Source: Paenibacillus sp. PK3_47 (GTDB taxonomy: Bacteria; Bacillota; Bacilli; Paenibacillales; Paenibacillaceae). From it: a stretch of 64,000 nt of DNA. The stretch is taken from positions 2,852,001 to 2,916,000 of the forward strand of contig NZ_CP026029.1 of the NCBI RefSeq assembly GCF_023520895.1, given 5' to 3'. The notes under the pieces are model-generated. The model was not told where the DNA came from. It saw nothing but the letters and a program-made list of their open reading frames with translations, and made no database searches. Position numbers and translations under genes: made by a program. Positions 47,059 to 51,810 of this stretch are shown piece by piece. Numbering within the stretch: position 1 is the first letter of the stretch; each line of letters opens with the position of its first letter.

Positions 47059-47420
47059 GGGGCCGTTCTTGGATTCGACGGGGGTAGTTCGAGCATGAGC
47101 AGCGAGTAGTGGGGACGCGTCCGCTTCATCAACGCTAAAGCCTATTAAACGGCAAACAACAAAACAACTACGCTTTCGCAGCCTAAGAAACTGTGTGCGT
47201 GCTTCTACCCTGCATCGCCCATGTGACAGGGATAGGGGCTAACTAGTAGTGGGATACGCCGCTTGGTCTCCGCCTGGGGTCAACGGAAGAAGATAATCAG
47301 GCTGACCCAACGTATAGCCGGTTACGGGGCGATACTCGGGTGACATCAAAACTGTGACTACACTCGTAGAAACTTATGTGCCGTTATCTTCGGACAGGGG
47401 TTCGACTCCCCTCGGCTCCA
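47059..47420 (+). ncRNA. ssrA: Transfer-messenger RNA (tmRNA)
   Basis: The 362-nt RNA begins GGGGCCG, pairing with CGGCTCC before the discriminator A at 47420; CCA is not encoded. The tRNA-like end has the T arm ACAGGGG-TTCGACT-CCCCT. The tag frame runs from GGC at 47151 to TAA at 47184-47186 and codes GKQQNNYAFAA, so stalled proteins would receive (A)GKQQNNYAFAA, ending in the usual ...AA degradation signal. smpB and rnr lie just upstream. Bases from about 47221 to the 3' end are duplicated at 48391. Confidence 0.96.
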
Positions 47421-47436
47421 TATGGAGTACAAGTAG

Positions 47437-47461
47437 AAGACACCTTAGGGGTGTCTTTTTT
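47437..47461 (+). terminator. Terminator of ssrA
   Basis: AAGACACC-TTAGG-GGTGTCTT followed by T run. This hairpin is the prototype of a family found repeatedly downstream. Confidence 0.9.
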
Positions 47462-48367: not shown

Positions 48368-48390
48368 TATCCCTATTCTTTCAGCTGATC

Positions 48391-48592
48391 ATGTTGACAG
48401 GGATAGGGGCTAACTAGTAGTGGGATACGCCGCTTGGTCTCCGCCTGGGGTCAACGGAAGAAGATAATCAGGCTGACCCAACGTATAGCCGGTTACGGGG
48501 CGATACTCGGGTGACATCAAAACTGTGACTACACTCGTAGAAACTTATGTGCCGTTATCTTCGGACAGGGGGGCGGGCTCCCCTCGGCTCCA
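48391..48592 (+). pseudogene. Partial ssrA copy (3' half, defective T-loop)
   Basis: About 200 bases repeat the ssrA sequence from roughly nucleotide 163 to the 3' end. The only change seen is in the T arm, where loop TTCGACT is replaced by GGCGGGCT. The 5' acceptor strand and the tag frame are missing, so it cannot form tmRNA. The copy continues past the 3' end into a duplicate of the ssrA terminator. Confidence 0.92.
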
Positions 48593-48608
48593 TATGGAGT
48601 ACAAGTAG

Positions 48609-48633
48609 AAGACACCTTAGGGGTGTCTTTTTC
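48609..48633 (+). terminator. Duplicate of the ssrA terminator
   Basis: AGACACC-TTAG-GGGTGTCT with five T, the same as the hairpin at 47437, as part of the duplicated segment. Confidence 0.85.
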
Positions 48634-48679: not shown

Positions 48680-48984
48680 GCCGTATTTTCACTGAAGCTG
48701 GTGAACCGCCGCTGACCGAAATTATCCTGATGAACCCTTATACGGATAAAGACGATCCCCTCGACAAACAGTCCATCTTTGATGTTTACGCCAAAGCCTC
48801 TGAAGGTAAGCTAATTGATATAGAAATGCAGTTGTTTAATAAGTACGACATAGAGAAAAGGACGCTTTTTTATTGGAGTAAACGGTATGCCAGCCAACTC
48901 AGTGAAGGCGATAAATATCCAGAGTTGAAGAAATGCGTGACGATCAACATCCTAAACTATTCGTTCTTGAAGAATGAGCAATAG
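48680..48984 (+). pseudogene. Truncated second copy of the Rpn-family nuclease gene
   Basis: The frame matches the intact copy from about residue 36 (RIFTEAGEPPLTEIILMNPY) to about residue 133 (NYSFLKNEQ) and then hits a stop. The first ~35 codons are lost by a deletion that joins the upstream AT-rich promoter region straight to the coding part, and the C-terminal half is missing. Protein identity is high but many synonymous sites differ, unlike the almost unchanged ssrA segment beside it. Confidence 0.88.
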
Positions 48985-49142
48985 CGGGTACTTGAAGAAG
49001 AGGAAGCTTTTGTGGTTGGATTTTTGGAGGGATACCGATTTATAAAAGAGCTCCAAAGATTCGGTGGAGGTCAGACTCTGGTTTAGGAGAAACCATCATT
49101 TATGCTATAATAATAGTAATTATTTATCCGGAGGTGTCCAAG

Positions 49143-49400
49143 ATGCGATGGGATGAAGTTCAGGAGCGGTTTCCGAATGAATGGGTCGTTCTTGAGGCGA
49201 CTAAGGCTTATTCTAAGGAAGGCCAGCGTTATATTGAAGAAATGTCCGTAATCGACTCCTATGAGGACTCTACCAAAGCGTTGAAGCGGTATAGTGAATT
49301 GCATCAAGAAGACCCTCACAGAGAGTATTGTTTCTTTCACACCTCCCGTCCTGAGGTTGTAGCGCGAGAACGATATGTTGGTATAAGAGGGCCCAGATGA
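49143..49400 (+). CDS. Small protein paired with retropepsin-like protease
   Basis: An 85-residue acidic/basic mixed soluble protein (MRWDEVQERFPNEWVVLEA..., ending GIRGPR) that I do not recognise. The GTG at 49134 lies within GGAGG (49130-49134), so ATG 49143, eight bases after it, is chosen. It overlaps the next gene by four bases (ATGA), so both are surely translated together. A TATAAT-like -10 lies near 49105. A role as partner, substrate or inhibitor of the protease is possible but only inferred from coupling. Confidence 0.7.
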   Translation: MRWDEVQERFPNEWVVLEATKAYSKEGQRYIEEMSVIDSYEDSTKALKRYSELHQEDPHREYCFFHTSRPEVVARERYVGIRGPR

Positions 49401-49783
49401 AACTAACAGAAATTTATGGACTTCCCTTCATAAGCATAACTGTTGTATTTAGAGGGAAAGAATTAAAACTGGAGAAGGTATTGCTTGACACAGGCTCTGT
49501 CAGCACACTTTTAAATGCGGATATTGTGCAGGAGATTGGTATGGTCCCCGAAGGAAATGATATAGTTGATATTATTCGTGGTGTAGGTGGTGTGGAGTAT
49601 GTATACACCAAATGCTTGGACTTGATTATAGTCGATGAAGCTATACTTAAGGATTTTCAAGTGGAAATCGGGAACATGGATTATGGCATGGAAATCGACG
49701 GCGTCCTTGGGTTTAACTTCTTGAAACAAGCAAGATCCGTGATTGATACTGGAGAAATGCAATTGAAAACTAACATTTGCTAA
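49397..49783 (+). CDS. Retropepsin-like aspartic protease
   Basis: A 128-residue protein with the aspartic protease active-site signature LLDTGSVSTLLN (Asp near residue 31) and the hydrophobic companion motif DGVLGFNFLKQARSVIDTG near the end. One DTG per chain means it would have to work as a dimer, as retroviral-type proteases do. No signal peptide or membrane segment is visible, so it is cytosolic. It is translationally coupled to the small protein before it and followed by a terminator. No reverse transcriptase or gag-like gene is near, so it is not a retroelement. Confidence 0.78.
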   Translation: MKLTEIYGLPFISITVVFRGKELKLEKVLLDTGSVSTLLNADIVQEIGMVPEGNDIVDIIRGVGGVEYVYTKCLDLIIVDEAILKDFQVEIGNMDYGMEIDGVLGFNFLKQARSVIDTGEMQLKTNIC

Positions 49784-49961: not shown

Positions 49962-50382
49962 ATGATGTCAATCGGTTTGAACCCGTATTTTGTCTTTAAC
50001 GGAAATGCAAGAGAAGCTCTTCATTTTTATGAAAAAGTGCTGCGCGGGATCGTGGTGGGAATTATGACGTTCGGGGACTTACCGGAAAATCCGGATCATC
50101 CGCTGACCGATGAGACGAAGAACCTCATTATGCACGCGCATTTAAAAGTCGGTGACGCAGATCTCATGTTCTCTGATACTTTTCCGGGCACTTCGCATCA
50201 GGCGGACGGGGATACGGTTCAGATTGCCATCCATCCCACAGGAGATTTTTGCCGCATTGGAAGACGGTGGTCAAGCGGTTATGCCTCTGCAGAAAACGGA
50301 TTGGAGTCCTTTGTACGGAATTGTTAAGGACAAGTTCGGCGTTACTTTTCAGGTGAATGTCCATGTCCCGGGGGAGGAATGA
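49962..50382 (+). pseudogene. PhnB-like VOC family gene with frameshift
   Basis: The first frame from ATG 49962 codes a typical PhnB/3-demethylubiquinone-like VOC N-terminal half (PYFVFNGNAREALHFYEKVL, LMFSDTFPG) up to about residue 95 (VQIAIHP). The missing C-terminal half (ALEDGGQAVMPLQKTDW..., DKFGVTFQVN) continues in the next frame to a stop at 50380-50382. A small deletion near 50240-50250 therefore breaks the gene; the original frame ends at 50327. Sequencing error is possible. The start has AAGGGGATG upstream, and the next VOC gene begins three bases after the restored stop. Confidence 0.8.
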
Positions 50383-51314: not shown

Positions 51315-51378
51315 TTGGGCGGGCCTCTCGGCTCTATATAGAGTGCATGCAGCAGACACCTTCAGAGGTGTCTTTTTT
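51315..51378 (+). pseudogene. Third, decayed copy of the ssrA 3' end plus terminator
   Basis: GGGCGGGCCTCTCGGCTC and the following bases up to the AGACACC...GGTGTCT hairpin (51354-51373) resemble the altered T arm, acceptor end and terminator of the partial copy at 48391, including its GGGCGGGC change, with more substitutions. Confidence 0.7.
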
Positions 51379-51544
51379 ATTCCCACAGATGTAATTAGAA
51401 AGCAAAGTTTCGAGTAATTAACCAGCAAGGCACTCGGCGGTACTCTCAGCCAACTTTCAGTTCGAAATAAGCTTGCTTTGAGAAAAGGTCTCTATACTAA
51501 TCGTATAAAACCTTTGGAAAGGAAGTGGTGTAGTATGCTGAAAC

Positions 51545-51810
51545 GAACCTATTAATGACTTGGAAATGCTAATGCTAACGGACCCCAGATCCGTTATTTT
51601 GCGCTAGAAGTGTGTTTAGAATCCCTAACGGACCCTAGATCCGTTATTTCATCTGAAAGGGCTTAATGTACCCACCATTTAGCAAAATAAAGGAACCACG
51701 TTCCGTTAGCGATGGAAACGGGGCGATTTTCGGCAAATAACGGACGCAGTGTCCGTTAGCGTGCGAAAGAGGATGAGGCATCTAACGGATGCAGCGTCCG
51801 CAGACATGGA
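51545..51810 (+). repeat. Dispersed AACGGA-palindrome element, copy B
   Basis: Matches copy A (33163-33427) over its whole length in the same orientation, with five AACGGA...TCCGTT-type palindromes, for example TAACGGACCCCAGATCCGTT at 51576. It begins right after a promoter-like TATACT, AAAGGAAG and ATG CTG AAA CGA, so it may have interrupted a gene after four codons. Confidence 0.8.

Follow-up and report, generated by a model that had tools for sequence, protein, structure and literature searches.

Displaced 3' ends of the tmRNA gene ssrA point to repeated insertion of single genes behind it in Paenibacillus

Our analysis of a 64,000-nucleotide stretch of DNA from Paenibacillus sp. PK3_47 (the window) and of related genomes suggests that new single genes were repeatedly inserted directly behind ssrA in Paenibacillus, and that each time the broken 3' piece of ssrA was pushed downstream. 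We regard this as probable, and we would with similar moderate confidence read the partial ssrA copy of the window as a displaced 3' end, left when an rpn cassette entered through one-sided homologous recombination with an illegitimate joint on the other side, and later homogenised with ssrA. The genes of the window follow the order rnr, smpB, ssrA, rpn, displaced ssrA 3' end and rpn' remnant, after which the array continues with a candidate defence pair, two VOC genes and a third ssrA remnant (Table 1; rnr, smpB and the VOC genes were named from their own sequence and not by family search).

Table 1. Features of the ssrA locus in the window.
Feature	Position	Strand	Evidence
Intact ssrA (tmRNA), anchor gene, tag GKQQNNYAFAA	47059..47420	+	ARAGORN; Rfam RF00023, 175.5 bits
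ssrA intrinsic terminator	47435..47459	+	11-pair stem, then T-run
Complete rpn cassette gene, PD-(D/E)XK, Rpn/TIGR01784	47540..48367	+	Pfam PF12784, 5e-70; TIGR01784, 6e-63
rpn 3' flank and putative illegitimate joint to ssrA: GATCATGTTGA / ssrA CCATGTGACAGGG, short microhomology	48368..48396	+	
Displaced ssrA 3' half, left part (matches 47224-47400)	48395..48571	+	Repeat search
Replaced T-loop, GGCGGGCT	48572..48579	+	Repeat search, fold prediction
Displaced ssrA 3' end (T-stem 3' strand, acceptor strand)	48580..48592	+	Repeat search
Displaced terminator, now behind rpn	48607..48631	+	
rpn' remnant, both ends lost; DNA 86% and protein 95% identical to rpn	48681..48984	+	
Candidate defence pair PDC-M08A/B, next cassette	49134..49783	+	PADLOC, 2e-36 and 4e-48
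Older remnant (third) of the ssrA 3' end, terminator included; T-loop replaced by GGGCGGGC	51317..51380	+	Repeat search

The original prediction described a near-perfect duplicate of the ssrA 3' part in which the T-loop alone is replaced, and this is exact. The repeat search gave identity over 177 nt (47224-47400 against 48395-48571) and over the 53 nt that hold the ssrA 3' end and terminator (47408-47460 against 48580-48632), while in between TTCGACT (47401-47407) of ssrA has become GGCGGGCT in the copy, 8 nt for 7 nt. ARAGORN finds a single tmRNA in the window, at 47059-47420, and the copy scores 31.4 bits in Rfam, under the gathering score of 47. In the whole genome (6.8 Mb, one contig) there are only two strong ssrA matches, with E-values of 1e-211 and 2e-114. 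That the copy is an assembly artefact, a concern raised with the prediction, is unlikely given this search and given the separate assembly of P. phytohabitans, in which ssrA and rpn precede an ssrA fragment whose loop is altered as in the window, and what is left of an rpn 3' end comes next. Group I introns are known in the tmRNA T-loop (PMC11915505), and we rejected this explanation because 8 nt replace 7 nt and no intron is present. The third remnant, which the original prediction had overlooked, is made up of GGGCGGGC, CTCTCGGCTC... and a terminator. Beside it, at 51574-51760, lie several palindromic repeats of the form TAACGGAC...GTCCGTTA.

Comparison with other Paenibacillus ssrA loci, which had been proposed as a check, shows that truncated ssrA 3' ends are widespread and that the loop change extends beyond the window. 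A tmRNA profile search found one to five such ends downstream of one intact ssrA in 44 of 54 Paenibacillus genomes, the 54 regions being those with an intact tmRNA and most of them picked for having ssrA matches. An uncurated sample of same-genus relatives gave at least two matches to the copy in 28 of 36. Every region in which a tmRNA was detected has one intact ssrA upstream, and the arrays always have ssrA on their left. The control rnpB, also a long structured RNA, was at most single-copy in each of 61 genomes. The fragments are biased towards the 3' end of the gene: none of the 90 starts before tmRNA nt 50 (the range is nt 52-333) and 75 reach nt 355 or beyond, where these counts and our tests treat fragments as independent and take one genome per species. 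If the newest insertion always lay nearest to ssrA, the oldest fragments should be farthest away, but we found no significant trend of this kind, either between rank and identity to the own ssrA (rho -0.21, p 0.08) or between first and last fragments in that identity (p 0.45), and strict stacking was set aside. A literature search, with most subscription journals outside its coverage, returned no paper describing ssrA arrays in Paenibacillus.

The joints between cassette and ssrA give a first view of how these insertions may have come about. The rpn gene is joined to tmRNA nt 161 in the window and to nt 266, 68, 225 and 183 in other species, five in all. Joints lie between -5 and 30 nt from a same-strand stop codon in 31 of 90 cases, compared with 6.9 +/- 2.5 (maximum 14) for random intergenic positions under the same distance criterion, and a single minus-strand gene start falls at that distance. 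Trimming deletions between the stop codon and the ssrA piece would equally give such proximity. Left edges at nt 260-299 account for 40 of the 90 and could hint at a preferred site, though some of them only reflect divergence further upstream. A precise crossover near nt 281, where BLAST edges cluster, was rejected since several fragments extend upstream in diverged form and the edges are scattered from nt 52 to nt 333 in the profile search. Short matches at the variable joints were seen in a few cases, judged by eye and without a null.

It is possible to follow some joints from one species to another. P. tengchongensis has the same rpn-ssrA joint as the window, with the rpn flank GCYGATCATG | TGACAGGG, and it was against this locus and the rpn flank of a further relative (G028) that the window joint was defined. 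The two strains are 92.8% identical in rpn and 85.1% in smpB (p 1e-5), with 85% for the VOC genes and 95% for terminator plus spacer. In the same way P. monticola and P. phytohabitans, which have a common joint at nt 66-68, are 91.6% identical in rpn against 81.1% in smpB (p 6e-8). The reverse is seen between Paenibacillus sp. PastM-3 (G032) and G022, where smpB is 93.7% and rpn 84.4% identical. Judged from these sequence comparisons, the discordance between cassettes and smpB supports an origin of the inserted segments in other strains. The P. tengchongensis rpn itself (L134, 4001-4827) is frameshifted and 93% identical to that of the window, and the first VOC gene of the window (49962-50327) encodes 121 aa against 142 aa in its P. 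tengchongensis counterpart and is probably frameshifted too.

P. tengchongensis is also informative about why the RNA part of the window copy is identical to ssrA. Outside the loop the window pair is 100% identical, whereas in P. tengchongensis the displaced copy differs from ssrA at 15 of 237 positions (93.7% identity) and has a wild-type T-loop. As the joint is the same and the divergence there is 6%, the identity in the window implies later homogenisation by gene conversion. Slow evolution of ssrA was rejected as the sole cause, because species pairs whose rpn genes are 83-92% alike have ssrA tails that are 85-98% alike and never 100%. The comparison thus supports homogenisation of the window copy with ssrA after the joint had formed, provided that the joint was inherited or moved as a unit; that the same joint arose a second time in a new event seems less likely. 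The original prediction had offered gene conversion, or an equivalent homologous exchange, as one way in which the RNA segment could be kept alike, and it is this option that gains support.

The repeated order ssrA-rpn-ssrA-rpn' and the perfect identity of the RNA part could also be taken to mean that ssrA and rpn were duplicated in tandem within the strain and that the second copy then decayed. We rejected this and consider it very improbable. Divergence of the rpn copies at many synonymous sites had been noted in the original prediction, our alignment bears out that most changes are silent, and the copies are no closer to each other than rpn genes of different species. With 95% protein and 86% DNA identity, both must have been functional during their divergence, and truncation of one came later; the RNA part, identical outside the loop, does not follow the rpn copies in their divergence. 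Additionally, the joint is present in P. tengchongensis, and other species hold unrelated genes between their ssrA pieces.

A more serious alternative, which we still consider rather unlikely, is that the copies are remnants of site-specific integrative elements that used ssrA as attB through a serine or tyrosine integrase and have since lost their integrases. The target gene is restored and its old 3' end displaced, as integrative elements would do, and ssrA islands with insertion in the T-loop are known from Dehalococcoides (PMC3146451). Large serine recombinases are found behind ssrA in six relatives (G012, G013, G015, G026, G028 and G032), and conserved right ends CGAATTGTGGCTCTGCANGTCCA|CCCCTCGGCTCC occur in P. 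monticola (G018, twice), G031, G032 and G036. Against this, no tyrosine integrase or large serine recombinase lies nearer than about 290 kb to ssrA in the window's own genome, most cassettes consist of one gene without a recombinase, the left edges of the long fragments are spread over about 280 nt and vary even for one and the same gene, and fragments that start anywhere in the range given above do not form an att repeat of fixed position and length. The original prediction of an attachment remnant thus stands as far as a displaced ssrA 3' end is concerned, and falls for a classical att repeat, given edges that vary between species and the lack of a nearby integrase. Part of the arrays is nevertheless probably site-specific, as the serine recombinases behind ssrA in several relatives indicate. 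Such islands probably use the same ssrA locus, partly inside displaced ends (G035, G036), and an integrase may have acted on the arrays in trans. CGAATTGTGGCTCTGCANGTCCA, placed directly before CCCCTCGGCTCC, looks like a conserved element end, comparable to attR in elements with a serine recombinase. In G035 and G036, sequences that may be the corresponding left ends lie inside displaced ssrA ends, which may be landing sites.

The changed T-loop is a separate problem, since displacement as we propose it does not predict a recurrent loop change. The change recurs in displaced ends of at least four species: the window and P. phytohabitans both have GGCGGGCT, which also occurs in G121 in a degenerate end, and the displaced ends of G114 and G002 have GGCGGACT and GGTAGGCT, respectively (the GG type). 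The intact ssrA loops among the matches listed from 100 genomes of the genus read TTCGACT or TTCGAAT, and none of them is of the GG type. P. tengchongensis and P. monticola lack the change even though they have joints in common with the window and P. phytohabitans, respectively, so that its origin, or its exchange, probably postdates the joints. The idea that it is the scar of an element specific for the T-loop finds no support: conserved attR-type ends exist, but none of them ends in GGCGGGC, and every example of the change apart from the third remnant of the window is embedded in ssrA.

One could instead regard the remodelled T-arm as a sign of a functional small RNA, in which selection maintains the tmRNA 3' half, either by itself or as an element of a 3' UTR. 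The recurrence of a like change would agree with this, as would the terminator, which is kept in most fragments. For the three GG-type sequences the same fold and energy are predicted, a tetraloop on a 7-bp stem and -11.2 kcal/mol, compared with a 5-bp stem and 7-nt T-loop at -7.7 kcal/mol predicted for the normal T-arm. However, the z-scores of the fold against shuffled sequences are unremarkable, and the predicted fold proves nothing by itself. The GG type is seen in only 4 of the 73 fragments that include a T-arm, against 52 in which the loop is canonical, the fragment is without the 5' half required for the tRNA-like fold, and the P. tengchongensis copy decays freely. An independent 3'-fragment RNA, as originally suggested, is also not supported in the window: a simple consensus scan detected no sigma-70-like promoter site upstream of the copy, which lies 21 nt behind the rpn stop. 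We therefore consider a functional small RNA improbable, while the displaced copy is likely to serve as 3' UTR and terminator of rpn.

The terminators add to the picture of turnover at this site. Those of ssrA fall into several families, which recur behind the displaced ends of other species, and the displaced terminator belongs to the family of the own ssrA terminator in only 19 of 66 cases. The recurrence of families across species indicates that the ssrA 3' flank was replaced repeatedly.

Under the displacement reading, incoming DNA in which a gene is accompanied by an ssrA-like end and a terminator would pair with the conserved ssrA by homologous recombination, and on the distal side an illegitimate joint would connect the sequence right after the stop codon of the gene to a point inside the resident ssrA. 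This would leave ssrA intact, add a new gene and shift the former 3' end, together with the terminator that followed it, downstream, where it could act as the 3' end of the new gene. Repeated rounds would then build arrays of cassettes, and a cassette flanked on both sides by ssrA could pass from one species to another through ordinary homologous recombination. In the lineage of the window, gene conversion would later have homogenised the displaced end with ssrA except in the T-loop, which had become, or afterwards became, a tetraloop hairpin.

Integron arrays collect single-gene cassettes, with toxin-antitoxin and defence cargo among them, behind a fixed anchor. The ssrA arrays resemble them in single-gene cassettes, toxin or defence cargo and fixed anchor, and the outcome is integron-like with no recombinase found near ssrA in this genome; the search there gave no tyrosine integrase near ssrA, and there is no repeat of constant length or attC. 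The orphan immunity-gene arrays of the V. cholerae T6SS, for which homology-facilitated illegitimate recombination was proposed (PMC5361080), are similar in that new modules are taken up at a conserved anchor upstream, which shifts the old 3' part downstream, and in that such events repeat and build arrays. Immunity genes are what remains there, behind a protein-coding anchor, whereas the Paenibacillus anchor is a tmRNA gene that has to be preserved whole and what remains are 3' ends of this gene together with terminators. The Dehalococcoides islands also lie in tandem downstream of ssrA with ssrA 3' repeats as bounds, but these are constant 20 bp repeats cut in the T-loop and many islands have the serine recombinase DsiB (PMC3146451), unlike the Paenibacillus repeats, which vary in length from about 30 to 310 nt and surround single genes. 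In additive flexible genomic islands at tRNA genes, RNA-gene 3' repeats likewise mark successive additions, and in the Methylophilaceae they are the last 20 bp of tRNA-Lys (PMC10872708), compared with long tmRNA 3' parts and intrinsic terminators here. Of the mechanisms considered, it is the recombination model proposed for V. cholerae that fits the Paenibacillus arrays best.

Between the fragments there are mostly single genes, which include Rpn, Fic/Doc with a short partner, a zeta-toxin-like AAA protein, HNH, Mrr-like, nucleotidyltransferase and VOC genes. Rpn proteins are described as toxic anti-phage proteins restrained by intragenic antitoxins (PMC10327210). Several cassettes match candidate-defence models of PADLOC, PDC-M08A/B of the window among them, where the cassettes scanned were hand-picked, ten of them as the first 110 residues or less, and we claim no enrichment. 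PDC-M08B is aspartyl-protease-like (Pfam PF13650), and a block similar to the pair also stands behind ssrA in G007, G012, P. monticola, G031 and G032. In the window the pair has its own terminator. If our reading is right, the ssrA 3' flank in Paenibacillus would be a place to seek untested defence genes.

A wider reading is that ssrA is a genus-wide capture site, free of recombinases, for single-gene defence and toxin cassettes, that its displaced ends are reused as the 3' UTRs and terminators of these cassettes and as new landing sites, and that the stable tetraloop hairpin is a repeated adaptation which keeps the displaced ends from being read as tmRNA; taken as a whole we find this doubtful. 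If the displacement reading holds, a conserved RNA gene may work as an integron-like collecting point without a dedicated recombinase, driven by its conservation across species. Partial tmRNA matches would then be displaced ends and not new RNAs, which is a warning for annotation, and the recurrent remodelling of the T-loop offers a small puzzle that can be tested directly.
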